Positions 1 through 17,526 of a stretch of 64,000 bases of DNA are shown in pieces. The stretch covers positions 782,205-846,204 of the forward strand of contig NZ_LMDK01000012.1 of the NCBI RefSeq assembly GCF_001425055.1, read 5' to 3'. The notes under the pieces are model-generated. The model had not been told where the DNA came from. It did not search any database and worked only from the letters and a program-made list of their open reading frames with translations. Origin of the DNA: Pelomonas sp. Root1237. GTDB lineage: Bacteria; Pseudomonadota; Gammaproteobacteria; Burkholderiales; Burkholderiaceae_C. The position numbers were made by a program, and so were the translations under genes. The stretch's first letter is position 1; each line of letters starts with the position of its first letter.

Positions 1-3000
1 GTTGCGCAAGGGCGCCCGTGGTCAGCGACTTGACGTCCGCGGTCTCAATCGCGGCCAGTTGCGCGGTAGACAGGCTGCCTGCCTGCGTGGAGTTCAGCGC
101 CGCGACCTGGCCCGAGGTCAGGGCGACCATGTCACCCGTGGTCAGGCCCTTGATCTGGGCGGTGCCCAGCGAGGCGACTTGCGCCGTGGTCAACGAGCCG
201 ACGGCATCGCTGGCCAGGGAGCCGACCTGGTCGGAAGACAGGCCATTGAGGGCTGCCGTCGTGACGGCGCGCAGGTCGGCCGTTTCCAGCTTGCCCAGCT
301 GGCCGGTGGTCAGTGCACCGAACTGGCTGGAGTTCAGCGCCGCGAACTGGGCGGTGCCCAGCGCGTTGAGGTTGTCGGTCGCGAGATTGGCGAGCTGGGT
401 GTTGGTCAGTGCCTGGACTTGGGCCGAGGACAGGTTGGCGAACTGGCCACTGGTGAGGCTGTTCAGGTCGGCCGTGCCCAGGGTGTTGATCTGGCTCGTG
501 GTCAGCGAGTTGATCTGGCCGCTGCTGAGTGCACGCAACTGGTCGCTGGTGAAAGCGTCGAGCTGGTCGGACGACAGGTTGCGCAGGGCACCCGTCGTCA
601 GCGACTTGACGTCGGCGGTCTCGATCGCAGCGATTTGCGCGGTGGACAGGCTGCCCGCCTGCGTGGAGTTCAGCGCCGCGACCTGACCCGAGGTCAGGGC
701 GACCATGTCACCCGTGGTCAGGCCCTTGATCTGGGCGGTGCCCAGCGAGGCCACTTGTGCCGTGGTCAGCGAGCCGACGGCGTCGCTGGCCAGGGCACCG
801 ACCTGGTCGGAAGACAGGTTGTTGAGTGCAGCGGTGGTGACGGCGCGCAGGTCGGCCGTTTCGAGCTTGCCAAGTTGGCCGGTGGTCAGTGCACCGAACT
901 GGCTGGAGCTCATCGCCGCGAACTGGGCGGTGCCCAGCGCGTTGAGGTTGTCGGTCGCGAGATTGGCGAGCTGGGTGTTGGTCAGTGCCTGGACTTGGGC
1001 CGAGGACAGATTGGCGAACTGGCCACTGGTGAGGCTGTTCAGGTCGGCCGTGCCCAGGGTGTTGACTTGGGCAGTCGTCAGCGAGTTGATCTGGCCGCTG
1101 CTGAGCGCGCGCAGTTGGTCGCTGGTGAAGGCGTCGAGCTGGTCGGCCGGTGCCCAGGGTGTTGACTTGGGCAGTCGTCAGCGAGTTGATCTGGCCGCTG
1201 CTGAGCGCGCGCAGTTGGTCGCTGGTGAAGGCGTCGAGCTGGTCGGACGACAGGTTGCGCAGGGCGCCGGTGGTCAGCGACTTGATGTCGCCAGTCTCGA
1301 TAGCCGCGAGCTGGGCGGTGGACAGCGTGCCGGCCTGGGCCGAATTGATGGCAGCGACCTGAGCCGAAGTCAGGGCGACCATGTCACCCGTGGTCAGGCC
1401 TTTGATCTGGGCGGTGCCGAGCGAAGCAACTTGGGCCGTGCTCAGCGAGCCGACGGCGTCGCTGGCCAGGGCACCGACCTGGTCGGAAGACAGGCCGTTG
1501 AGGGCCGCGGTGGTGACGGCGCGCAGATCGGCCGTCTCGAGCTTGCCCAACTGGCCGGTGGTCAGCGCACCGAACTGGCTGGACGACAGGGCCGCGAATT
1601 GGGCGGTGCCCAACGCGTTCAAGTTGTCGGTGGCGAGGTTGCCGAGCTGGGTGTTGGTCAGCGCCTGGGCTTGGGCCGTGGACAGGTTGGCGAACTGGCC
1701 GCTGGTCAGGCTGTTCAGGTCAGCCGTGCCCAGGGTATTGATCTGGCTGGTTGTCAGCGAGTTGATCTGGCCGCTGCTCAGCGAACGCAATTGGTCGCTG
1801 GTGAAGGCGTCGAGCTGGTCAGACGACAGATTGCGCAGGGCGCCGGTCGTCAGCGACTTGATGTCAGCCGTCTCGATGGCGGCAATCTGGGCCGTGGAAA
1901 GGCTGCCGGCCTGGGTCGAGGTCAGCGAGGCGACCTGGGCCGAGGTCAGGGCGACCATGTCGCCCGTGGTCAGGCCCTTGATCTGGGCGGTGCCTCGATC
2001 TGGCCCGGCGTCGCGTCAGCGGCAATCTGGGCCGTGGAAAGGCTGCCGGCCTGGGTCGAGGTCAGCGAGGCGACCTGGGCCGAGGTCAGGGCGACCATGT
2101 CGCCCGTGGTCAGGCCCTTGATCTGGGCGGTGCCCAGCGAGGCGACTTGTGCCGTGGTCATCGAGCCGACGGCGTCGCTGGCGAGGGCGCCGACCTGGTC
2201 GGAGGACAGACCATTGAGGGCTGCCGTCGTGACGGCGCGCAGGTCAGCGGTTTCGAGCTTGCCGAGCTGGCCGGTGGTCAGCGCACCGAACTGGCTGGAC
2301 GACAGGGCCGCGAATTGGGCGGTGCCCAGGGCGTTGAGGTTGTCCGTCGCCAGATTGGCAAGCTGGGTGTTGGTCAGCGCCTGGACCTGGCCCGAGGACA
2401 GATTGGAGAACTGGCTGCTGGTCAGGCTGTTCAGGTCGGCCGTGCCCAGGGTGTTGATCTGGCCGGTTGTCAGCGAATTGACCTGACCGCTGCTCAGCGC
2501 GCGCAGCTGATCGCTGGTGAAGGCATCGAGCTGGTCGGAGGACAGATTGCGCAGGGCGCCGGTCGTCAGCGACTTGATGTCAGCCGTCTCGATGGCGGCA
2601 ATCTGGGCCGTGGAAAGGCTGCCGGCCTGGGTCGAGGTCAGCGAGGCGACCTGGGCCGAGGTCAGGGCGACCATGTCGCCCGTGGTCAGGCCCTTGATCT
2701 GGGCGGTACCCAGCGAGCCGACCTGTGCGGTGGTCAGCGAGCCCACGGCGTCGCTGGCCAGCGCACCGACCTGGTCGGAGGACAGGCCGTTGAGCGCAGC
2801 CGTCGTGACGGCGCGCAGGTCGGCCGTTTCCAGCTTGCTCAGCTGACCGGTCGTCAGCCCGCCGAACTGGGTCGACGACAGCACGGCGAAATGGCCCGTG
2901 CCCAGCGCGTTCAGGTTGTCGGTGGCCAGGTTGCCGAGCTGGGTGGCGGTCAGGGCCTGGGCCTGGGCTGTGGAGAGGTTGGCGAACTGGCTGCTGCTCA

Positions 3001-3598
3001 GGCTGTTCAGGTCAGCCGTACCGAGCGTATTGACCTGACTCGTCGTCAATGAATTGACCTGGCCACTGGAAAGGGCGCGGAGCTGGTCGCTGGTGAAGGC
3101 GTCCAGCTGGGTGGACGACAGGTTGCGCAGCGCAGCGGTGGTGATCGACTTGATGTCGACCGTCTCGATGGCGGCGATCTGGGCCGTGGAGAGGTTGCCC
3201 AGCTGGGCGGACGTCAACGCGCCGATCTGCCCGGAGGTCAGCGCCACCATGTCGGCGCTGCTCAGGCCCTGGATCTGGGCCGTCGACAGGACGGCGATCT
3301 GCGAGGTGCTCAGGGCCTGGACCTGGTCGGTCTTGAGGGCCTGGATCTGGTCAGAGCTGAAGCCGGCCAGGGCGCTGGTCGCGATGGCCCGCAGGTCTTC
3401 GGTCTGGAAGGCCCGGATCTGGTCGCTCTTCAGGACCGCCAGGCTGCTGGAAAGGATGACCGAGGCCTGCGCGGTGGTGAACGCGATCAGCTGGTCGGTG
3501 CTGAGGGCGGCGTAGTCTTCCGTCGTCCAATTGCGGATCGTCGTCGTGCTGAGGTTCGGGATGACAGATGGCGAAATGCCGGGGATGACGGTTGACAT
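1..3598 (-). CDS. Giant octapeptide-repeat protein A (3' end outside window; frame broken)
   Basis: The protein starts at the ATG complementary to 3596-3598, preceded by a good Shine-Dalgarno (AGGTGAG about 6 nt upstream). After a short N-terminus (MSTVIPGISPSVIPNLST) the whole visible sequence consists of 8-residue units such as TAQIQALS, TSDQLRAL and TADLRAVT. The pattern is Ser/Thr first, Gln/Asp third, an aliphatic residue fourth and Leu/Ile/Phe seventh. Twenty-four octads make a 192-residue super-repeat. No transmembrane segment, cysteine or catalytic motif is visible. The frame is interrupted near 1147-1150 and 1995-2018, and a single extra A near position 9 compared with the copy at about 595 breaks it again, so the intact product cannot be read. 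It lies 343 bp downstream of paralogue B on the same strand. I do not recognise the family. The regular, polar, Ser/Thr/Gln-rich design suggests an elongated surface or secreted solenoid, which is inference. Confidence 0.72.
1050..1246. repeat. 97-bp exact direct duplication with frame break in gene A
   Basis: Bases 1050-1146 are repeated exactly at 1150-1246, a 100-bp shift that is a multiple of neither 3 nor 24. Both the reading frame and the octad phase are lost at the join. Before it the minus-strand protein reads in octads, and after it the same frame becomes an arginine/proline-rich nonsense sequence. Natural unit gain or loss should add multiples of 24 bp, so an assembly join is the simpler explanation. 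Confidence 0.85.
1879..2134. repeat. 116-bp exact direct duplication flanking a 24-bp foreign-looking segment in gene A
   Basis: Bases 1879-1994 are repeated exactly at 2019-2134. Between them lies a 24-bp stretch (1995-2018) that does not follow the octad pattern. The 140-bp shift disrupts the frame, so the N-terminal 530 or so residues of protein A cannot be joined directly to the rest. It resembles the other broken joins in this locus. Confidence 0.85.
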
Positions 3599-3941
3599 GT
3601 TTTCTCACCTGTACTGATGGCCGCCTTGCCTTGCGGCGTGGCGGCGTTGGACCATCGCTGGCCCACCCCCGAAACTGGAGGCGTTGTTCTGAGCGGAGCC
3701 TGTGCCCCGGCGCGTCGAGCAGCCAAGACGTGCCAGAGATACAAAAAAATTGAAACCCGAACCCAACCCAATGCGGCCGCAGGCGGGATGCGATCCCGCC
3801 TGGAGCGCCGCGATGAGGTGGGCTCGTGTTGTCATGCTAGGGACGAGTCCTCGGAACCAATCGGCAAAAAGACCGGGTTTCTCGACCCAAGGTCGACCGT
3901 TCGGCAGCTGCGCCGAATGGGCTTGAACGAATTCACGGACT
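3599..3941 (-). promoter_or_regulatory. Intergenic leader of gene A with perfect hairpin
   Basis: These 343 bp separate the stop of gene B from the start of gene A. They hold a perfect 9-bp inverted repeat with a 3-nt loop at 3781-3801 (arms AGGCGGGAT and ATCCCGCCT). There is no following T-run on either strand, so it is not a canonical terminator. At 3829-3844 lies a segment (minus strand GTCCCTAGCATGACAA) shared with the leader of gene B at almost the same distance from the start codon. TAGCAT within it could be a -10 element, which would give a 5' UTR of about 220 nt. That promoter reading is inference. Confidence 0.45.
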
Positions 3942-6900
3942 TCACACCCAGTTGCCGCCGTTGTTGCGCCGGTGCTCGTCGTCCTCGGCCAGCTTGCGGT
4001 CGATGGCCGCAAGGTGGGCGTCGGCCGACGGGTGCGGCACGGCCGCCTTGGCCAGGTCGACGTGCTCGGCACCGAGCAGCGGGGCGGTCGGCGGTGCCAG
4101 AACGTCGTGCAGGCTGACCGTCGCGTCCTTGCCGTCATCGGCCTTCTGCGGCTGCACGTCCTTGGCGAACCAGACGTCGGCCACGTCGTGCTTGCTGCCG
4201 TCGGTCGTCGTGTAGCTGGACACCAGGCCGATGAGGTTGCCGCTGTCTGACCCGGAGCCCTTGGTGGCGTTCAGGTCGAGCGAGGTGATGCCCAGCTGGT
4301 CCAGCGTCTTCAGCTCGCCGGCGTCGGTCTTGCCGTCGTGGTTAGCGTCGACCCAGACCTGCAGCTGCTTCCAGTTGGCGTCGTGGCTGTCGAGCTTGCC
4401 GTCATGGTTGCTGTCCTGTTCGGCCATGGCGGCGTAGCCATCCTTGGCATGCTTGCCGTTGGCCAGCACGGTGCCCATGCCGAAGAGTTCACCGCCGCTG
4501 TTGATGAGGCCGTCATGGTTGCGGTCCATCACCAGCAGGCCATCGCCGCCAGCCACCCAGCCCACCTTGTTGGCCTGGCCGGTGCCAAGCAGGTCGAAGT
4601 TGACGCCCTGGGCGGCGGCCAGCGTGTTGACGCCGTGGCCATCCAGGTCGAGCACGATGGGCGTGACGTTGAAGTAGGCGTTCATCTGCGCCGCGCTCAT
4701 TTCGCCGAAGGTCGTGCCTTGCAGCGCGTCGAGCTGAGCCATGCTCATGGCGGTGATGTCGCGGGTTTCCAGGCCGCTGATCTGATCGGTCGTGAGGCTG
4801 TGGATCTGATCCGTGGTCAAGGCCGCTGCCTGCGCCGTGGTCAGCGCCGTGATCTGCGTCGCCTTCAGCGTGCTGAACTGGTCGCTGGTGATGGCCTGGA
4901 TTTGCGCATTGCTCATCGCGGCGACGTGGGCCGTGGTCAGTGCGCGCAGGTCGTCGGTTTCCAGCGCCGCGATCTGCGAGTTCGTGAAGGCCTTGACCTG
5001 GGTGGAGGTCAAGGACGCGAACTGCGCCGTCGTGAAGGTGTTCAGGTCGTCGGTGGCCAGGTTGTTGATCTGGCTGGTCGTCAGCACCGACACGCGGGTG
5101 CCCAGGCCGGTCAGCTGATCGGTGGTCAGCGCACCCAGCTGGGTGTTGGTGATGGCCTGCAGCGATGCCGAAGTCAGCTTGGCCAGGTCATCGGAGTCGA
5201 TGGCCACGATCTGGTCGGTGGACAGCGAGTTCACCTGGGCCGTGGTCAGCACCGAGATCTGCGCCGAGCCCATGGCCGTCAGGTCGGCTGCGGCCAGGCC
5301 CTGGATCTGTGCGGTGGACAGCGACAACACCTGGGCCGTGCTGAGCGCGGCGATGTGCTCGGTCTGCAGCGAGGCGATCTGATCCGAGTTCAGGCTCGAC
5401 AGCGCCGCCGTCGTCACCGCGCGCAGGTCGGCCGTCTGCAGATTCGGCAGCTGGTCGGTTGTCAGCGAACCGAACTGGGTCGCGTTCATCACCGCGTAGT
5501 GCTGTGTTCCCAGGGCCGTCAGATCGTCCGTCGTCAGGTGCGACAGCTGGCCGGCCGTCAACGCCTGGACCTGGCCCGTGCTCATGCGAGCGAACTGGTC
5601 GGTCGTGAACGCGTTCAGGTCGTCGCTATTCATCGTCGACAGCTGGGCCGTCGTCAGCGAGTTCACCTGCGCCGAGGTCAGCGATTGCAGCTGGTCGCTG
5701 GTCAGGCCATCCAGCTGGGTGCTGGTCAGGGCGCGCAGCGCGGTCGTGGTCAGGAAGCGGATGTCGCCGGTCTCGATGGCGGACAGCTGATCGGTGCTCA
5801 GCGCAAACGCCTGGGCGGAGTTCAGCACGGCCACCTGGGCGGTGCCCAGGGCCGTCATGTCGGCGGCCGTCAGGCCCTGGACCTGGGACGTCGTGAGCGA
5901 GCCGATCTGGGCGGTGCTGAGGCTGGAGACCTCGTCGGAGCTCAGTGTCAGGATCTGATCCGAAGACAGGCCACGCAGCGCTGCCGTGGTGACGGCGCGC
6001 AGGTCGGCCGTCTCCAGCTTGGGCAACTGGTCGGAGGTCAGCGAACCGAACTGACTGGAGTTCAGCGTCGCGAACTGGGCCGTCCCCATGGCGTTGAGGT
6101 TGTCGCTGGCCAAGCTGCTCAGCTGGGCCGTCGTCAGTACGGCGACCTGGGCGGTGGAGAGCTTGTTGAACTGGTCGGACGTGAGGCTGTTGAGGTCGTC
6201 CGTGTTCAACGTGCGGACCTGGTCGGTCGTCAGCGAGTTGATCTGAGCACTTGTCAGGGCGCGCAGTTGGTCGCTGGTCAGGCCGTCCAGCTGTGCGCTG
6301 CCGAGGGCCCGAAGGGCCGCCGTCGTCAGCGACTTCATGTCAGCCGCATCGATGGCCGAGAGTTGGTCGGTCGACAGGTTCTGGGCCTGCGCCGAGCTCA
6401 GCGCCGCGACCTGAGCGGTGGACAGGGCGGTCATATCGGCCGCGGTGAGGCCCTTGACCTGGGCGGTCGTGAAGGCCGCCACCTGGCCCGTGGACAGGCT
6501 GGACACCTCGTCGGAGGTCAGCGACTGGACCTGGTCGGAACTCAGGCCTTGACCTGGGCGGTCGTGAAGGCCGCCACCTGGCCCGTGGACAGGCTGGACA
6601 CCTCGTCGGAGGTCAGCGACTGGACCTGGTCGGAACTCAGGCCGCGCAGCGCATTGGTCGTGACGGCACGCAGGTCGGCCGTTTCCAGCTTGGACAGCTG
6701 GTCGGTCGTCAGCGAGCCGAACTGGCTGGACGACAGCGTCGCGAACTGGGCCGAGCCCATCGCGTTGAGGCTGTCGGTGACCAGGTTGCTCAGCTGCGAG
6801 GTCGTCAGCGCCTGGATCTGCGAGGTCGACAGGCGGGCGATCTGGTCCGTCGTCAGCACGTTCAGGTCATCGGTGTTGAGGCCGATGATCTGCGGGTTGG

Positions 6901-9900
6901 TGGTCAGCGCATTGAGCTGTGTGCTGCTGAGGCCGCGCAGCTGATCGCTGGTCAAGCCATCGATCTGGGTGCTGGACAGGGCTCGCAACGCGGCCGTCGT
7001 CAACGACTTCATGTCGGACGCGTCGATGGCTGCCAGCTGGTCGGTGGACAGCGACTGGACCTGGGCCGAGCTCAGCACAGCAACCTGGGCCGTGGACAGG
7101 GCCGTCATGTCGGCGGCCGTCAATCCCTGGACCTGCGACGTCGTCAGCGAGCCGATCTGGGCGGTGCTGAGGCTGGAGACTTCATCGGAACTCAGCGTCA
7201 GGATCTGGTCCGAACTCAGGCCGCGCAGCGCGGCGGTCGTGACCGCACGCAGGTCGGCTGTCTCGAGCTTGGGCAACTGGTCGGAGGTCAGCGAACCGAA
7301 CTGGGTGGATGACAGCGAGGCGAACTGGGCCGAACCCATCGCATTCAGGTTGTCTGTCGTCAGGTTGCTGAGCTGCGTGGTGGTCAGCACCTGGACCTGG
7401 GCGGTGGAGAGCTTGTTGAACTGGTCGGACGACAGGCTGTTGAGGTCGTCCGTGTTCAGCGTGCGGACCTGGTCGGTGGTCAGGGCATTGATCTGGCTGG
7501 AAGACAGGGCCCGCAACTGATCCGAGGTCAGGCCGTCGAGTTGGGTGCTGCTGAGGGCGCGCAGGGCGGCCGTTGTCAGCGACTTCATGTCAGCCGCGTC
7601 GATGGCGGACAGTTGATCCGTGTTCAGTGCGGCCGCCTGGGCCGAGCTCAGCACGGCCACCTGGGCGGTGCCCAGGGCCGTCATGTCAGCGGCCGTCAGG
7701 CCCTGGACCTGGGACGTCGTGAGCGAACCGATCTGGGCGGTGCTCAGGCTGGAGACCTCATCGGAGCTCAGCGTCAGGATCTGGTCCGAGCTCAGGCCGC
7801 GCAGTGCGGCGGTCGTGACGGCGCGCAGGTCGGCCGTCTCCAGCTTGGGCAGCTGGTCGGACGTCAGCGAACCGAACTGGGTGGACGACAGCGTGGCGAA
7901 CTGGGCCGAGCCCATTGCATTGAGGTTGTCCGTCGTCAGGTTGCTCAGCTGAGCGGTCGTCAGCACTTGCACCTGGGCGGTGGAGAGCTTGTTGAACTGG
8001 TCGGACGTGAGGCTGTTGAGGTCGTCCGTGTTCAGCGTGCGGACCTGGTCGGTGGTCAGCGAGTTGATCTGGCTGGAGCTCAGCGCGCGCAGCTGGTCCG
8101 AGGTCAGGCCGTCGAGCTGGGTGCTGGACAGCGAGCGCAGAGCCGCCGTCGTCAGCGACTTCATGTCGGCGGCTTCGATGGCGGACAGCTGGTCGGTCGA
8201 CAGGTTCTGGGCCTGGGCCGAGCTCAGCGCGGCCACCTGGGCGGTACCGAGCGCCGTCATGTCGCCGGCCGTCAGGCCCTTGACCTGGGCCGTCGTCAAC
8301 GTGGCGATCTGGGCCGTCGTCATCGAACCGACTTCGTCGGACGTCAGCGACTGGACCTGATCGGAGCTCAGGCCGCGCAGCGCATTGGTCGTGACCGCGC
8401 GCAGATCGGCCGTCTCCATCTTGGAGAGCTGATCGGTGCCCAGGGCGCCGAACTGGTTGGAAGACAGCGTGGCGAACTGGGCCGAGCCCATCGCGTTGAG
8501 GCTGTCGGTGACCAGGTTGCTCAGCTGGGTCGTCGTCAGCGCCTGGATCTGCGAGGTCGACAGGCGGGCGATCTGATCCGTCGTCAGCACGTTGAGGTCA
8601 TCCGTGCTGAGGCTGATGATCTGCGGACTGGTGGTCAGCGCGTTGAGCTGGGCACTTGTCAGCGCCCGCAGCTGATCGCTGGTCAGGCCATCGATCTGGG
8701 CGCTGGACAGCGCACGCAGGGAGGCCGTCGTCAGTGACTTCATGTCGGCCGCATCGATGGCCGAGAGCTGGTCCGTGTTCAGCGCAGCGGCCTGGGCCGA
8801 GTTCAGCGCCGCGACCTGGGCGGTGCCGAGCGCCGTCATGTCGGCGGCGGTGAGACCCTTGACCTGGGCGGTCGTGAAGGCCGCCACCTGAACTCAGGCC
8901 GCGCAGCGCATTGGTCGTGACGGCACGCAGGTCGGCCGTTTCCAGCTTGGACAGCTGGTCGGTCGTCAGCGAGCCGAACTGGCTGGAGGACAGTGTCGCG
9001 AACTGGGCCGAGCCCATCGCGTTGAGGCTGTCCGTGGCCAGGTTGGACAGCTGCGTCGTCGTCAGCGCCTGGATCTGCGAGGTCGACAGGCGGGAGATCT
9101 GATCCGTCGTCAGGACGTTGAGGTCGTCAGTGTTGAGGCTGACGATCTGCGGGCTGGTCGTCAGCGCGTTGAGCTGGGTGCTGGTCAGGCCACGCAGCTG
9201 GTCGCTGGTCAGGCCGTCGAGCTGGGTGCTGCTCAGGGCGCGCAGGGCGGCCGTCGTCAACGACTTCATGTCGGCCGCGTCGATGGCCGACAGCTGGTCG
9301 GTGGACAGCGACTGCGCCTGGGCCGAACTCAGCACGGCCACCTGGGCGGTGCCCAGGGCCGTCATGTCGGCAGCCGTCAGGCCTTGGATCTGGCTGGTGG
9401 TCAGCGAGCCGATCTGGGCGGTCGTGAGGCTGGACACCTCATCGGAGCTCAGCGTCAGCACCTGATCCGAGGACGCAGGTCGGCGGTTTCCAGCTTGGGC
9501 AACTGGTCAGACGTCAGTGAACCGAATTGCGTGGAATTCAGCGATGCGAACTGGGCCGTGCCCAGGGCGTTGAGGTTGTCCGTCGTCAGGTTGCTGAGCT
9601 GAGTGGTCGTCAGCACCTGGATCTGGGCAGTGGAAAGCTTGTTGAACTGGTCGGACGACAGGCTGTTGAGATCGTCCGTGTTCAGCGTGCGGACCTGGTC
9701 GGTGGTCAGCGAGTTGATCTGGCTGGAGCTCAGCGCGCGCAACTGGTCCGAGGTCAGGCCGTCCAACTGGGTGCTGGACAGGGCGCGCAGGGCGGCCGTC
9801 GTCAGCGACTTCATGTCGGCCGCCTCGATGGCTGACAGCTGATCCGTGCTCAATGCGGCCGCTTGGCTAGAGCTCAGCACGCCAACTTGGGCCGTGGACA

Positions 9901-12900
9901 GGGCCGTCATGTCACCGGCCGTCAGGCCCTTGACTTGCGTGGCGGACAGCGAAGCAATCTGTCCCGTGGACAGGCCCGCCACCTCGTCGGAGGTCAACGT
10001 CAGGATCTGGTCGGAGCTCAGGCCCGCCAGTGCCGCAGTCGTGACGGCGCGCAGATCGGCCGTCTCCATCTTGGGCAACTGGTCCGACGTCAGCGAACCC
10101 AGTTGCGACGAATTCAGCGTGGCGAACTGGGCCGAGCCCATCGCATTGAGGTTGTCCGTCGTCAGGTTGCTCAGCTGAGCGGTCGTCAGCACTTGCACCT
10201 GGGCGGTGGAGAGCTTGTTGAACTGGTCGGACGTGAGGCTGTTGAGGTCGTCCGTGTTCAGCGTGCGGACCTGGTCGGTGGTCAGCGAGTTGATCTGGCT
10301 GGAGCTCAGCGCGCGCAGTTGATCCGAGGTCAGGCCGTCGAGCTGGGTGCTGGACAGGGCACGCAGGGCGGCCGTCGTCAGCGACTTCATGTCGGCGGCT
10401 TCGATGGCGGAGAGCTGATCGGTCGACAGGTTCTGGGCCTGGGCCGAACTCAGTGCGGCCACCTGGGCGGTGCCGAGCGCCGTCATGTCGCCGGCGGTCA
10501 GGCCCTTGACCTGGGCCGTCGTCAGTGCGGCCACCTGGGCAGTGGTCAACGAACTCACTTCGTCCGAGCTCAGCGACTGGACCTGATCGGAACTCAGGCC
10601 GCGCAGTGCAGCGGTCGTGACCGCGCGCAGGTCGGCCGTCTCCATCTTGGAGAGCTGGTCGGTCGTCAGCGAGCCGAACTGGTTGGAAGACAGCGTGGCG
10701 AACTGGGCCGAGCCCATCGCATTCAGGCTGTCGGTGACCAGGTTGCTCAGCTGCGTGGTCGTCAGCGCCTGGATCTGCGCGGTCGACAGTCGGGCAATTT
10801 GGTCCGTCGTCAGGACATTGAGGTCATCGGTATTGAGGCCGACGATCTGCGGGCTGGTGGTCAGCGCGTTGAGCTGGGCGCTGGTGAGGGCGCGCAACTG
10901 GTCGCTGGTCAGGCCATCGATCTGGGTGCTCGACAGGGCGCGCAGGGCGGCCGTCGTCATCGACTTCATGTCGGCCGCATCGATGGCGGACAGTTGGTCG
11001 GTATTCAGCGCGGCGGCTTGAACCGAACTCAGGGCGGCCACCTGGGCGCTGCTCAGCGCCGTCATGTCGCCGGCCGTCAGGCCCTTGACCTGGCTGGCCG
11101 ACAGCGAGGCGATCTGGCCGGTCGACAGGCCGGCCACCTCGTCGGAGGTCAGCGTCAGGATCTGGTCGGAGGTCAGGCCGGCCAGGGCCGCGGTCGTGAC
11201 GGCGCGCAGGTCGGCCGTCTCCAGCTTGGGCAACTGGTCGCTGGTCAGCGAACCGAACTGGGCCGAGCTCAGCGTCGCGAACTGCGATGAGCCCATCGCA
11301 TTGAGGCTGTCGGTGGCCAGATGGCTGAGCTGGGTGGTCGTCAGCGACTGGACCTGGGCGGTGGACAGCTTGTTGAACTGGTCGGACGTGAAGCTGTTCA
11401 GGTCGTCGGTGTTCAACGTGCTGACCTGGGCAGTGGTCAGCGAGTTGATCTGGCTGGAGGAGAGGGCGCGCAGTTGGTCGGAGGTGAGGCCATCCAGCTG
11501 TGTGCTGGTCAGGGCGCGCAGGGCGGCCGTGGACAGGAAGCGGACGTCGCCGGTCTCGATGGCGGCCAACTGGTCGGTGTTCAGCGCCTGGGCCTGGGTC
11601 GAGCTCAGCACGCCGATCTGGGCGGTGCCCAGGGCGGTCATGTCGCCGGCCGTCAGGCCCTGCACTTGAGAGGTGCTGAGTGAGCCGATCTGGGCGGTCG
11701 TGAGGCTGGACACCTCGTCGGAGCTCAGCGTCAGGATCTGGTCGGAAGAGAGGCCGCGCAACGCGGCGGTCGTGACCGAGCGCAGGTCGGCCGTCTCCAT
11801 CTTGGGCAACTGGTCCGACGTCAGCGAACCGAACTGGCTGGAGTTCAGCGTCGCGAACTGGGCCGAACCCATCGCGTTGAGGTTGTCGGTGGCCAGGCTG
11901 CTCAGCTGAGCCGTCGTCAGCACGGCGACCTGGGCGGTGGAAAGCTTGTTGAACTGGTCGGACGTGAGGCTGTTGAGGTCGTCCGTATTCAGCGTGCGGA
12001 CCTGGTCGGTGGTCAGCGCGTTGATCTGGCTGGAGGTCAGGGCACGCAGCTGGTCGCTGGTGAGGCCGTCCAGCTGGGTGCTGGTCAGGCCACGCAGGGC
12101 GGCCGTGCTCAGCGATTTCATGTCAGCCGCCTCGATGGCGGACAACTGGTCAGTGTTCAGGGCCGACACCTGGGCCGAGCCCAGGGCGGCGATCTGGGCG
12201 GTGCCCAGGGCCGTCATGTCGCCGGCCGTCAGGCCTTGCACTTGGGCCGTGGTCAGCGCAGCGATCTGGCCCGTGGTCAGGACGCCCACCTCGTCGGAGG
12301 TCAGCGTCTGGATCTGGTCGGAGGAGAGGCCGCGCAGTGCCGCGGTCGTGACGGCGCGCAGGTCGGCCGTCTCCATCGTCGGCAGCTGGTCAGAGGTCAG
12401 CGAGCCGAACTGCGTGGAGTTCAGCGTCGCGAACTGGGCCGAGCCCATGGCGTTGAGGCTGTCCGTCGTCAGGTGGCTCAGCTGCGCCGTCGTCAGCGCG
12501 GCGACCTGGGCGGTGGAGAGCTTGTTGAACTGGTCGGACGCCAGGCTGTTGAGGTCGTCCGTGTTCAGCGTGCGGATCTGGTCGGTCGTCAGCGCGTTGA
12601 TCTGGCCAGAGGTCAGGGCACGCAGTTGATCGCTGGTCAGGCCATCCAGCTGGGTGCTGGTCAGGCCACGCAAGGCGGCCGTGCTCAGCGACTTCATGTC
12701 GGCGGCCTCGATGGCCGACAGCTGGTCGGTGTTCAGGGCCGACACCTGGGCCGAGCCCAGGGCGGCGATCTGGGCGGTGCCCAGGGCCGTCATGTCGCCG
12801 GCCGTCAGGCCCTTGACCTGGGCCGTCGTCAACGTGGCGATCTGGGCCGTCGTCAGGGCGCCCACCTCGTCGGAGGTCAGGGTCTGGATCTGGTCGGAGG

Positions 12901-14293
12901 AGAGGCCGCGCAGCGCGGCGGTGGTGACGGCGCGCAGGTCGGCCGTCTCCATCGTCGGCAGCTGGTCGGACGTCAGCGCGCTGAACTGGGCCGAGTTCAG
13001 AGCGGCGAACTGGGTCGAGCCCATCGCGTTGAGGCTGTCCGTCGTCAGGTGGCTCAACTGGGCCGTCGTCAGCACGGCGACCTGGGCGGTGGAGAGCTTG
13101 TTGAACTGGTCGGACGACAAGCTGTTCAGGTCGTCCGTGTTCAGCGTGCGGACCTGGTCGGTGGTCAGGGCATTGATCTGGCCCGAGCTCAGGGCACGCA
13201 ACTGGTCGCTGGTCAGGCCGTCCAGCTGGGTGCTGGTGAGCGCCCGCAGGGCGACCGTCGTCAGTGACTTCATGTCGGCCGCATCGATGGCGGACAACTG
13301 ATCAGTGTTCAGCTGGGCGACCTGGGCCGAGCTCAGCACGGCCACCTGGGCAGTGTCCAGGGCCGTCATGTCACCAGCCGTCAGGCCTCGCACCTGGGCC
13401 GTGGTCAGCGCGGCGATCTGGCCGGTCGTCAAAGCGCCCACCTCGTCGGAGGTGAGGGTCTGGATCTGATCGGAACTCAGGCCGCGCAGCGCCACCGTCG
13501 TGATGGCGCGCAGATCGGCGCTCTCCATCTTGGGCAGTTGGTCGGAGGTCAGCGAACCGACCTGCAGGGAGGACAGAGCGGCGAACTGGGCCGAGCCCAT
13601 CGCGTTCAGGCCATCCGTCGTCAGGTGGCTGAGCTGGCTGGTCGTCAGCGACTGCACCTGGGCCGTGCTGAACTTGTTGAACTGGTCCGACGTCAGGGTG
13701 TTGAGGTCGTCGGTGTTCAAGGTGCTGACCTGGGCGGTGGTCAGCGCGAGGATCTGGCTGGAAGACAGGGCGCGCAGCTGGTCGCTGGTGAGACCGTCCA
13801 GCTGGGTGCTGGTCAGGGCGCGCAGCGCGGCCGTGGACAGGAACTTGATGTCCGTCGCTTCCAGGGCCGACAGCTGGTCCGTGGAGAAACCCTTGGCCTG
13901 CGTCGAAGTCAGGGCGCCGACCTGGGCGGTGGTCAGCGCCACCATGTCGGCGGCATTGAAGCCCTGCAACTGCGCGGTGCTCAGCTGCAGGATCTGGCCG
14001 GTGCTCAGGGCCTGCAGCTGGTCGGTCGTCAGGACGCCGATCTGGTCGGAATTGAAGCCGCCGATGGAGGCGGTCGAAATGGCGCGCAGGTCCTCGGTCT
14101 GGAAAGCGCGCAGTTGGTCGCTGCTCAAGACAGAAAGGCCGCTGGAGGTGATCACAGCGGCCTGTACGGTGGTCAGCGCAATCAGCTGGTCGGTGCTGAA
14201 GGCGGCCCAGTCTTCGGTCGTGAAATCCCGGATCGACGTGGTCGTGAGGCCAGGGATCTTGGAGACCGGAATGAAGGGGACGATGCTTGCCAT
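3942..14293 (-). CDS. Giant octapeptide-repeat protein B with C-terminal calcium-binding domain (frame broken)
   Basis: The likely start is the ATG at 14293 (MASIVPFIPVSKIPGLTTTS), with an AGG-containing site about 7 nt upstream. An in-frame GTG lies 27 nt further upstream. The product would be near 3,450 residues. The N-terminus is paralogous to protein A: both have a Thr-rich start, then IRxxTTEDxAAxSTDQL. About 16 super-repeats of 24 octads follow. From about 4680 to 3942 a distinct C-terminal domain begins with VLDLDGHGV and carries EF-hand/dockerin-like loops DRNHDGLINSGGE, DSNHDGKLDSHD and DANHDGKTDAGE. This domain type is known at the ends of large secreted calcium-dependent proteins. 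There is no N-terminal signal peptide, so type I secretion is plausible but unproven, and no secretion genes are visible nearby. Frame breaks occur at 6547, 8890 and about 9475, and all look like repeat joins rather than stops. Confidence 0.75.
6452..6643. repeat. 97-bp exact tandem duplication with frame break in gene B
   Basis: Bases 6452-6548 recur exactly at 6547-6643, a shift of 95 bp that breaks both reading frame and octad phase. The identical length is 97 bp, the same as at 1050-1246. Equal-length overlaps at unrelated places are expected from fixed k-mer overlaps at contig ends, not from replication slippage. Confidence 0.85.
8881..8900. other. Frame-breaking deletion junction in gene B (about 53 bp missing)
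   Basis: After ccgccacctg (8881-8890) the sequence jumps to aactcaggcc. In the homologous copy the same two strings lie at 6571-6580 and from 6634, with 53 bp between them. The loss is not a multiple of 3, so the minus-strand frame changes here. Type II super-repeats flank the junction closely on both sides (8620 and 9143), which suggests that repeat copies were collapsed here. Confidence 0.75.
9466..9485. other. Frame-breaking deletion junction in gene B (about 31 bp missing)
   Basis: The string ccgaggac at 9468-9475 is followed directly by gcaggtcgg. In parallel copies (for example near 5960-6005) about 31 bp separate the equivalent strings. The loss shifts the frame between the upstream 1,600-residue open stretch and the rest of gene B. 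Confidence 0.7.
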
Positions 14294-14611
14294 GGTTGTA
14301 CCTGCTGTGCTGACGGCCACGCCCTCATGGAGGTGGCGGCTTGCAACCCGGGGCAGCCGGCCAATGCCGTGGCACGGCCGTATCCCTAGATTTCAAGTGC
14401 TTCGATCGGTTATCGGGCCGGCCCCGCTTGACTTGAGGAACAAAGTCTCAAATCGGCCGGAATCAACCCGAACCGAGGCCGCCGCCCACGGCCCGAACAC
14501 CCGGACCGGGGGTGGTTTTCCCAGTAATTGCCATGCTAGTAAGGACTTAGCGAAGCCACACGCCGATAAGCGCGGGCTTTCGGTGGCAGTTCACGCACCG
14601 CCCGTCTGCCT
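14294..14611 (-). promoter_or_regulatory. Leader region of gene B
   Basis: These 318 bp between gene B and the GntR-type gene contain no convincing gene. On the minus strand GTCCTTACTAGCATGGCAA (14528-14546) matches the leader of gene A (GTCCCTAGCATGACAA) at about 235 versus 231 nt from the start codon. A second shared string, GGTTCGGGTT, lies nearer the gene. The last 50 nt before the start also align with those of gene A (GCCGCCAC, then TCAG-ACAG just before the ribosome site). The leader therefore appears to have been duplicated with the gene. Confidence 0.4.
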
Positions 14612-15298
14612 TCACAAAGCTGTCTGGGTGGCGCTCAGTCCGTTACAAAAATGGGCCGTGACAAGCTGCCTGCAGGCTTGCGCATCGCGCGCAAGCAGCG
14701 CTTGGACGATGGCGCGGTGTTCCTCCAGCGACTCCGCCAGCCGTCCCTCCCGGAACAGCGAATGGTGGCGATTGAGCTTCATCAGCCGCCGCAAGTCACC
14801 GACGATCTGCAGCCGCCAGCGGTTGCCGTCGATCTCCAGCACACGCAGGTGGAAGCGTTCGTTGGCGGCGAAGAAGGCATCCCGGTCGGGCAACGCCTCC
14901 TCCAGCGCGCGATGCAGTTCGCCGAGTTCGTTCAACTCGGCATCCGTCGCCCGGACACAGATTTCGGCGGCGGCGTCACTTTCTAGAAGGGAGAGCAGTT
15001 GGTAGGCTTCCCTGACGTCCCGCTCGCTCATCTCCGTCACATAGGCGCCGCGCCGAAGCTTCATCGTCACCAGGCCCTCGGAGGCCAGCACCTTCAGCGC
15101 CTCGCGCATGGGCGTGCGGCTGATACCCAGCTCGGCGCAGAGCTTGAGCTCGTCGATCCACGACCCCGGCTCCAGCTCCCGCGCCAGGATCTGCTGGCGA
15201 AGGCGGTCGGCCACCTGCTCATACAGAGCCGAGGCGGCGAGGGGGGCGTGGTCGAGGTAACCGGGCATGGCGGCCGAGTGTAGCGATTCTGAATTCAT
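14612..15298 (-). CDS. GntR-family (FadR/FCD-type) transcriptional regulator
   Basis: This is a 228-residue regulator with an N-terminal winged helix-turn-helix (about residues 20-85, including LYEQVADRLRQQILARELEP and ISRTPMREALKVLASEGLV). A helical FCD effector domain follows (about 90-215, with EANERFH-like FFAANERFHLRVLEIDGN and an HHSLF segment). FCD regulators bind small carboxylates through a metal and usually control a neighbouring catabolic operon. It is transcribed away from the propionyl/methylmalonyl-CoA cluster starting at 15352, so it probably controls that cluster; the effector cannot be read. The first ATG (15298) lies inside a palindrome with no Shine-Dalgarno. A second ATG at 15268 (MPGYLDHAP) is possible. 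Confidence 0.85.
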   Translation of the reverse strand: MNSESLHSAAMPGYLDHAPLAASALYEQVADRLRQQILARELEPGSWIDELKLCAELGISRTPMREALKVLASEGLVTMKLRRGAYVTEMSERDVREAYQLLSLLESDAAAEICVRATDAELNELGELHRALEEALPDRDAFFAANERFHLRVLEIDGNRWRLQIVGDLRRLMKLNRHHSLFREGRLAESLEEHRAIVQALLARDAQACRQLVTAHFCNGLSATQTAL

Positions 15299-15351: not shown

Positions 15352-17526
15352 ATGTCGGACGACAGCCGCGCCGGGGACGCCCCGGAGTTCAAGACTGCCA
15401 CGCTGGAGCAATGGACCAAGGCCGCCGCCAAGTCCGCCCCGGGCGGTGACGTGGCGGCACTGACCTGGGTGACGCCCGAGGGGTTGACGGTCAAGCCGCT
15501 CTACACCGCGGCCGATGTGGCCGACCTGCCGCACGCTGACACGCTGCCCGGCTTCGAGCCCTTCCTGCGCGGCCCGCAGGCGACGATGTACGCCGCCCGG
15601 CCCTGGACGATCCGCCAGTACGCTGGCTTCTCCACCGCCGAGGAGAGCAATGCCTTTTATAGAAAGGCACTCGCCGCCGGCGGCCAGGGCGTGTCGGTGG
15701 CCTTTGACCTGGCGACCCACCGCGGCTACGACAGCGACCATCCCAGAGTGACCGGCGACGTTGGCAAGGCCGGCGTGGCCATCGACTCGGTGGAGGACAT
15801 GAAGATCCTGTTCGACGGCATCCCGCTGGACAAGGTGTCGGTCTCGATGACCATGAATGGGGCCGTGCTGCCGGTGCTGGCCGGCTATGTGGTGGCGGCG
15901 GAAGAGCAGGGCGTGTCGCAGGACAAGCTGGCCGGGACCATCCAGAACGACATCCTCAAGGAGTTCATGGTCCGCAACACCTATATCTACCCGCCGGAGC
16001 CGTCGATGCGAATCGTCGGCGACATCATTGAGTACACGGCGCGGGAGATGCCCAAGTTCAACTCCATCTCCATCTCGGGCTATCACATGCAGGAGGCGGG
16101 CGCCAACCAGGCGCTGGAGCTGGCCTTCACGCTGGCCGACGGCCAGGAGTATGTGAAGACGGCCATGGCCAAGGGCCTGAGCGTCGACGACTTCGCGCCG
16201 CGCCTGAGCTTCTTCTGGGCCATCGGGATGAACTTCTATCTCGAGATCGCCAAGATGCGTGCGGCGCGGCTGCTGTGGACGCGCATCATGAAGAGCTTCG
16301 GCGCGACCGCGCCTAAGAGCCTGATGCTGCGCACCCACTGCCAGACCTCGGGATGGAGCCTGACCGCCCAGGACCCGTACAACAACGTGGTGCGCACCAC
16401 CATCGAAGCCATGGCTGCCGTGTTCGGCGGCACGCAGAGCCTGCACACCAACTCGCTGGACGAGGCCATTGCCCTGCCCACCGAGTTCAGCAGCCGCATC
16501 GCGCGCAACACCCAGCTCATCATCCAGGAAGAGACCCACATCACCAGCGTCGTCGACCCCTGGGCCGGCAGCTACATGATGGAAAAGCTCACCCAGGACA
16601 TGGCCGACAAGGCCTGGGAGATCATCGAGGAGGTCAATGCCCAGGGCGGCATGATCAAGTCGGTGGACTCAGGCTGGGCCAAGCTGAAGATCGAGGCGAG
16701 TGCAGCCGAGAAGCAGGCGCGCATCGACTCCGGCCAGGACGTCATCGTCGGCGTCAACAAGTACAAGCTGGCCAAGGAAGACCCCATCGACATCCTGGAC
16801 GTGGACAACGTCAAGGTGCGCGACGGCCAGATAGAGCGCCTGAACCGCATCAAGGCGACGCGCGACACGGCCGCCGTGCAGGCCGCGCTGGCCGCGCTGA
16901 CGCAGGCCGCGGAAACGGGCGAAGGCAACCTGCTGGACCTGTCCATCAAGGCCGTGCGCCTTCGCGCGACGGTGGGCGAGGTGTCCGACGCGCTGGAGGC
17001 CGTATTCGGCCGCCACCGTGCCGACACGCACAAGGTCAGCGGTGTCTACGCGGCCGCCTACGACTCGGCAGAGGGCTGGGCCAAGCTGCAGGAGGAGATC
17101 GCGGCCTTTGGTGACGAGCAAGGCCGCCGCCCGCGCGTGATGATCGCCAAGCTCGGCCAGGACGGCCACGACCGTGGCGCCAAGGTCGTGGCCACCGCCT
17201 TTGCCGACCTGGGCTTTGACGTCGACATCGGCCCGCTGTTCCAGACGCCCGAGGAATGCGCCCGCCAGGCCATAGAGAACGACGTGCACGCGGTGGGCAT
17301 CTCGACGCTGGCGGCCGGGCACAAGACGCTGGTGCCGGCCATCATTGCCGAGCTGAAGAAGCAGGGCGCGGACGACATCATCGTGTTCGTGGGCGGCGTC
17401 ATTCCGGCCCAGGACTACGACATGCTGTACGCGGCGGGCGTGAAGGGCATCTACGGCCCCGGCACGCCCATCCCGGCGAGTGCCAAGGACGTGCTGGAGC
17501 AGATCCGCGCACAGGTGGCCGCCTGA
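15352..17526 (+). CDS. scpA: Methylmalonyl-CoA mutase, single-chain B12-dependent
   Basis: This enzyme interconverts (R)-methylmalonyl-CoA and succinyl-CoA with adenosylcobalamin. The 724 residues match the usual length of the catalytic chain. The N-terminal two thirds form the TIM-barrel substrate domain ([20 protein letters not shown] near residue 85, [10 protein letters not shown] near 245). The C-terminal cobalamin domain carries DxHxxG as D604-G-H606-D-R-G609, where the histidine is the lower cobalt ligand. The start has a clear ribosome site (AGGAGA) and lies 44 bp after the palindrome at 15293. It is the first gene of a chain of eleven overlapping or near-touching genes and shares its operon with its chaperone MeaB. 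The gene symbol follows E. coli usage; mutB or mcm would be equivalent. Confidence 0.96.

Follow-up and report, generated by a model that had tools for sequence, protein, structure and literature searches.

Two kinds of described system are among the closest to the locus analysed here. LapA and SiiE are repetitive giants built as chains of Ig-like or RTX β-repeats, each the substrate of a machinery composed of an LssB-type ABC transporter, an HlyD protein and an outer-membrane factor. HMW1 and HMW1C combine a very large exported protein with a soluble GT41-type enzyme; HMW1, an N-glycosylated adhesin, is associated with two-partner secretion and with Asn sites (PMC3012730, PMC3983070). The locus in question comprises two adjacent giant genes, A and B, on the minus strand of positions 1–14293 in a 64,000-nucleotide stretch of Pelomonas sp. 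Root1237 (the window; C12:782205–846204, where C12 is contig NZ_LMDK01000012.1 of the 6.43-Mb genome). Analysis reveals that both genes encode arrays of 8-residue repeats (octads) of the ALTTAQ family, which recurs near GT41 and often type I secretion system (T1SS) genes across unrelated genera. The best reading, held with slightly better than even confidence, is that the product is a type I-secreted, Ser/Thr-glycosylated superhelical surface fibre.

The two genes and their internal elements are laid out as follows, in window coordinates.

3945–14293, minus strand: gene A, a giant ALTTAQ-repeat protein (~3450 aa) with an ATG start at 14293, PF20080 in the pieces searched, and frame breaks at ~9470, ~8900 and ~6545
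10067–13525, minus strand: six consecutive 24-octad super-repeats of gene A, with upper boundaries at 13525, 12949, 12373, 11797, 11221 and 10642, the fifth being 193 aa long
6686–8416, minus strand: three more super-repeats of gene A (8416–7841, 7840–7265 and 7264–6686)
4160–4661 (approximate), minus strand: domain of gene A resembling the FrpC self-processing module, by profile against PDB 6sjw (E 9.5e-48) and 6sjx (E 1.3e-46)
3945–4159, minus strand: C-terminal tail of gene A, following the module and ending IDRKLAEDDEHRRNNGGNWV
1–3598, minus strand: gene B, the 5' part of a second ALTTAQ-repeat gene, delineated from frames and octad tracks, with frame breaks at ~1990 and ~1150
2255–2830, minus strand: super-repeat of gene B
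287–862, minus strand: super-repeat of gene B

Gene B extends ~12.3 kb past the window start, to C12:769870. The array is spread over four frames in gene A and over three in the part of gene B inside the window. In the longest open piece (1621 aa, 9455–14320), residue identity reaches 0.31 at lag 8 and 0.68 at lag 192, compared with a maximum of 0.13 for these lags over 200 shuffles, and the DNA autocorrelation peaks at 576 bp (0.73). The octad periodicity is real and far above chance, and the 576-bp higher-order period reported in the initial annotation is confirmed by the same measures; its description of giant proteins, a 24-octad super-repeat and two adjacent genes is likewise correct. The super-repeat copies measure 192 aa (some 193) and are 65–93% identical to the first copy. 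The super-repeat of Pelomonas sp. Root1217 shows 87% identity, Pelomonas and Roseateles being the nearest named relatives.

The family had been taken as unrecognised, which does not hold: the octads are those of Pfam PF20080 (ALTTAQ_rpt). In a Pfam profile search this model matches the longest open piece with 1165.7 bits (E=0) in 58 stretches; the scores of three gene A pieces (1165.7, 600.7 and 432.3 bits) and of gene B (1398 bits) far exceed the curated cut-off of 26.4 bits. The model covers 38 residues, nearly five octads, and the octads of both genes match it. A described repeat family with known structure and role had been named as what would speak against novelty; a described family exists, but neither a role nor a natural structure was found for it in the literature searched (on ALTTAQ, HeliScrew, octad repeats and GT41 with T1SS), which contained nothing on this repeat family. 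Searching NCBIfam with the octads gave no model, merely sub-threshold chance matches, and tblastn against phages found no relative of the octad proteins. Several further Pfam models (CAAP1, Phage_TAC_7, EF-hand_11, LRR_EndoS, HTH_25 and DUF6432) score above their cut-offs in the octads but far under PF20080. These matches mostly lack a single significant stretch and look like repeat spill-over, and the leucine-rich repeat proteins among the PDB matches are matches of repeat composition.

The positional evidence concerns a cassette that lies beyond the window in the source genome:

C12:738200–747567: cassette in the order TPR-GT41 (PF13844, 253 bits), LssB-type T1SS ABC transporter (767 bits), HlyD, outer-membrane factor, hexapeptide/FdtA and DegT aminotransferase

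Here the GT41 gene abuts the LssB-type ABC gene, which sits 27 kb beyond the end of gene B and is the genome's only T1SS ABC over the LssB cut-off; the neighbouring HlyD exceeds the cut-off of TIGR01843. The interval between gene B and the cassette contains, among others, two giant open reading frames (ORFs) without family match, a GT2 gene, a methyltransferase gene and a weak Gly_transf_sug match. These two ORFs are adjacent (1621 and 1484 aa; C12:756232–765564, minus strand); searches covering all of the first and the greater part of the second gave no Pfam, NCBIfam or PHROG match. In the source genome as in others, genes for nucleotide sugars, further glycosyltransferases or methyltransferases occur in the same stretches.

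Across genomes, GT41 lies within 30 kb of the array on the same contig in 17 of 26; the GT41 counts found would predict about 1.1 (P about 3e-19 on the assumption that genomes are independent). It directly adjoins the ALTTAQ gene in Cereibacter, P. asturiensis, Rhodovastum, R. daejeonense, Pseudomonas sp., Methylomonas, Magnetospirillum and Rhizobium rosettiformans. The single-contig genome G914 carries a 5446-aa ALTTAQ frame followed 78 bp later by GT41 and then by the outer-membrane factor, HlyD and ABC genes. In a later sample of 15 further ALTTAQ genomes, seven (G914, G895, G614, G644, G611, G698 and G668) have GT41 within about 15 kb, as do seven of eight plasmid loci within 15 kb. T1SS ABC genes also occur within about 10 kb of the array in several relatives.

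AlphaFold2, given one 192-residue super-repeat with 44 homologous segments, returns a model with a predicted local distance difference test score (pLDDT) of 94.4 and a predicted template modelling score (pTM) of 0.85, containing 23 helices of 4–6 residues, one per octad. This prediction supports one short helix per octad, and with it the earlier proposal of short N-capped helices whose aliphatic residues face a core. Specifically, each octad would fold into a short N-capped helix with Ser/Thr at positions 1–2, Gln/Asp/Glu at position 4 and aliphatics at positions 5 and 8, and successive helices would wind into a continuous superhelix. The Ser/Thr at octad position 2 is present in 54–99% of octads across lineages.

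The closest PDB sequence match is HeliScrew4 (9zem chain A), which shares the octad in the same register (E 2.5e-26). Like the products of genes A and B, this 120-residue protein is a string of octads, here following the pattern [ST]-P-[ED]-[QK]-[IV]-A-A-L; its name suggests a designed protein, and sequence and name together would point to a common fold with the octad proteins. The entry is absent among the matches listed in a search of a structure library, with entries up to 2026-04-08, with the octad model. The best Foldseek/VIA-align matches are mesothelin (E 9e-5, TM ≤0.43) and designed armadillo proteins (Z 6.8), superhelices of only general resemblance to the octad model (Z <8, TM <0.5), and Foldseek against viral models returned no clear relative of it.

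The higher-order repeats of the family may reflect a common geometric unit. In 18 sequences from about 17 lineages, the best repeat lags are 34, 17, 27, 44, 44, 24, 48, 17, 17, 24, 78, 17, 24, 24, 17, 24, 10 and 20 octads. The 24-octad unit therefore stands for the source and some other lineages but not as a trait of the whole family, in which others have 10, 17, 27, 34, 44 or 78 octads. Lags of 10, 17, 24, 27, 34, 44 and 78 lie near 3, 5, 7, 8, 10, 13 and 23 multiples of 3.40 octads. The coherence of the 18 lags with this period is 0.93, against a null maximum of 0.64 in 300 random lag sets over all periods; with each distinct lag counted once, it is 0.91 versus 0.80. In the spectrum of octad composition, with period 2 and periods >12 excluded, the strongest line falls at 3.36–3.43 octads in 12 of the 18 sequences, and the remainder peak at 2.43–2.45, near the alias of the second harmonic of the 3.40 line, or elsewhere. 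As evidence, lag and line partly overlap, because the lines are harmonics of the super-repeat in proteins with clean super-repeats.

These sequence periodicities suggest that 3.40 octads (~27 residues) may correspond to one superhelical turn, with duplications tolerated if they keep phase. Arrays would then grow through duplication of blocks near a whole number of turns, 24 octads making seven. Helix-length variation in the AlphaFold2 DSSP string, judged by eye for a 3.4 period, showed no clear pattern. A different regularity is seen in Magnetococcales, where octads alternate very strongly with a period of 2.0 (z 92–421), forming a 16-residue dyad; weaker period-2 alternation occurs in Cereibacter, Magnetospirillum and Niveispirillum.

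Gene A ends in ~240 residues outside the octads, comprising the FrpC-like module and the tail. The array closes with an octad of the type M-S-x-x-Q-x-x-A-Y-F, after which the module begins; the final residues of gene B are the same as those of gene A except the last one. About 170 residues are homologous to the FrpC module, with EF-hand-like Ca motifs in common. FrpC is cut at its Asp414-Pro415 bond and the Asp becomes linked to Lys, with packing of W451 and W519 (PMC7078468). The two invariant Trp residues of the module here, W76 and W144, are taken as the counterparts of this pair, and the residue before Pro is Thr in 13 of 13 aligned sequences where FrpC has the scissile Asp; therefore, judging from sequence, the clip-and-link chemistry should be absent. 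Lacking the scissile Asp, the Ca-binding module would cap the array in the source lineage, where it might serve in Ca-dependent folding or anchoring.

An FrpC-like module also follows the octads in plasmid-borne Pseudomonas relatives and in G914, and two Pseudomonas proteins again have Thr before Pro, as STP (STPLVLDLNGDG). In some relatives (Cereibacter, Niveispirillum, Pseudoroseomonas and Rhodobacter), the protein ends two residues past the last octad. In proteins with no more than two residues past the last octad, the ends read MSSAQIAALFL, MTTAQIAALSM, MTSAQINALFM and MTASQVSALFL. Because a similar octad also precedes the module in gene A, the terminal octad could be a cap or an export signal.

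From the gene neighbourhood we infer both O-glycosylation and type I export of the ALTTAQ proteins. A dedicated TPR-GT41 glycosyltransferase would O-glycosylate the octad Ser/Thr residues, about two per octad, in the cytoplasm; the chain would leave through the T1SS formed by the LssB-type ABC transporter, HlyD and outer-membrane factor. The chains would then be retained on the cell surface or released from it, forming a long glycoprotein fibre or coat with a probable role in adhesion or biofilm. Compared with LapA and SiiE, the ALTTAQ proteins differ in their predicted short-helix octads and, in some relatives, in having no domain past the last octad. In contrast to HMW1/HMW1C, the TPR-GT41 here resembles the O-GlcNAc-transferase/SPINDLY type and is found with a T1SS and Ser/Thr-rich octads; the likeness would be one of mode of action and not of membership. 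A broader proposition, to which we give slightly less than even chances, is that ALTTAQ proteins form a widespread class of T1SS-secreted, GT41 O-glycosylated superhelical fibres with array lengths quantised to 3.4-octad turns.

Several observations weigh against the glycosylated-fibre reading. The GT41/T1SS cassette does not adjoin the array in the source genome or its relatives; the spacing is 12–30 kb in Roseateles-group genomes with both on one contig. Linkage was counted manually from hit tables, and nine genomes of the first set, like most of the remaining ones in the second, did not show array and GT41 on a single contig and cannot be judged. G752 has ALTTAQ but lacks GT41, and on the Shinella plasmid no GT41 lies within 15 kb. 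The base rate of GT41 is high (107 of 200 genomes of the order), genomes of common ancestry are not independent, and the AlphaFold2 model of the C-terminal module is poor (pLDDT 49) and unusable. A plain test of GT41 presence is weak (9/9 versus 98/191, Fisher P 0.004); positional linkage alone is strong. Kinship, the multiple GT41 copies of some groups and the high base rate make the P value less compelling, but they leave the recurrence in unrelated genera intact.

The rival that survives best, and which we nevertheless regard as unlikely, casts the ALTTAQ proteins as giant adhesins that leave by type I secretion without being glycosylated. On this view, GT41 and the other glycosyltransferases nearby would produce or alter something else (capsule, lipopolysaccharide or flagellin), and the linkage would reflect a shared surface-polysaccharide island. 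The cassette of the source genome fits this account, since it lies 27–30 kb from the array and also has FdtA- and DegT-type nucleotide-sugar genes and other glycosyltransferases; a dTDP-rhamnose gene set stands nearby on the Cereibacter plasmid. However, GT41 and the ALTTAQ gene sit side by side in unrelated genera (Cereibacter, Rhodovastum, Rhizobium, Pseudomonas, Methylomonas, Magnetospirillum and G914), and some such loci, as in R. daejeonense, show no polysaccharide island in the annotated flank.

Plasmid records annotate ALTTAQ proteins as 'ICE nucleation protein', 'heme utilization protein' and 'large exoprotein involved in heme utilization or adhesion'. These names are what would favour an intracellular scaffold that is not secreted, or else a haem protein or one that binds ice, which we consider very improbable; the ice or haem names find no support in the present data. 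Ice-nucleation proteins are described as β-solenoids, unlike the all-helical fold predicted here. T1SS genes lie nearby in many lineages, and the array is followed here by an FrpC-like module of the kind found in type I-secreted proteins.

The octad frame changes at ~9470, ~8900, ~6545, ~1990 and ~1150, with several more changes in gene B beyond the window, where single Ns mark some of them. Exact direct duplications of 66–134 bp, with short spacings that are not multiples of 24, occur at three of the five breaks in the window and at most of those outside:

6452–6643: exact 97-bp direct duplication, spacing 95, at the ~6545 frame break; likely assembly join
1879–2134: exact 116-bp direct duplication, spacing 140, at the ~1990 frame break; likely assembly join
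1042–1246: exact ~100-bp direct duplication, spacing 100, at the ~1150 frame break; likely assembly join

Pelomonas sp. Root1217 carries both genes intact as open frames of 3479 and 5176 residues. Three gene A pieces align gap-free to its 3479-aa frame with amino acid identities of 0.88, 0.94 and 0.98 and ratios of non-synonymous to synonymous substitution (dN/dS) of 0.22, 0.12 and 0.06. Given the intact orthologue, the gap-free alignment and the low dN/dS, assembly joining is the likeliest source of the breaks; the copy number in the assembly is approximate. That they are genuine, and the genes decaying pseudogenes in the source strain, would suit the breaks at ~9470 and ~8900, which show no exact duplication of at least 60 bp; it is poorly compatible with the dN/dS values of 0.06–0.22, the 97–116 bp duplications at the three other window breaks and the several exact 66–134 bp duplications and Ns in gene B, and we rate it as quite improbable. 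Upstream of gene A lie a GntR/FCD regulator (14612–15298, minus strand) and a methylmalonyl-CoA mutase-type protein (15352–17526, plus strand), apparently of unrelated metabolism.

The β-solenoid with 8-residue rungs, offered in the initial annotation as the alternative fold, draws on the finding reported in PMC11795689 that AlphaFold2 can yield confident yet unrealistic β-solenoids for repeats, so that its repeat models need care in general, but the prediction here is helical and not β and the sequence-related PDB entry bears the name HeliScrew4, which leaves this fold scarcely credible.

For the super-repeat quantisation, the GT41/T1SS linkage and the fold of PF20080 proteins, no description was found in the literature searched; the first two, together with the Thr-Pro FrpC-like module that caps the array, appear to be undescribed. 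What is new is the finding of genes for ALTTAQ giants together with those for a secretion pump and a sugar-adding enzyme, and longer repeats that would preserve whole turns of a probable short-helix spiral. The 3.40-octad rule would explain super-repeats of 10, 17, 24, 27, 34 and 44 octads and, if true, would provide a clean case of superhelical geometry limiting the growth of a repeat protein. The repeat family has been named, yet no described role was found for it, and the linkage offers a concrete candidate function across several proteobacterial classes. A helical screw bearing Ser/Thr pairs at regular intervals would lend itself to the dense display of glycans, and, if the broader proposition above is true, the glycosyltransferase would be a third partner of the T1SS, by analogy with HMW1C.

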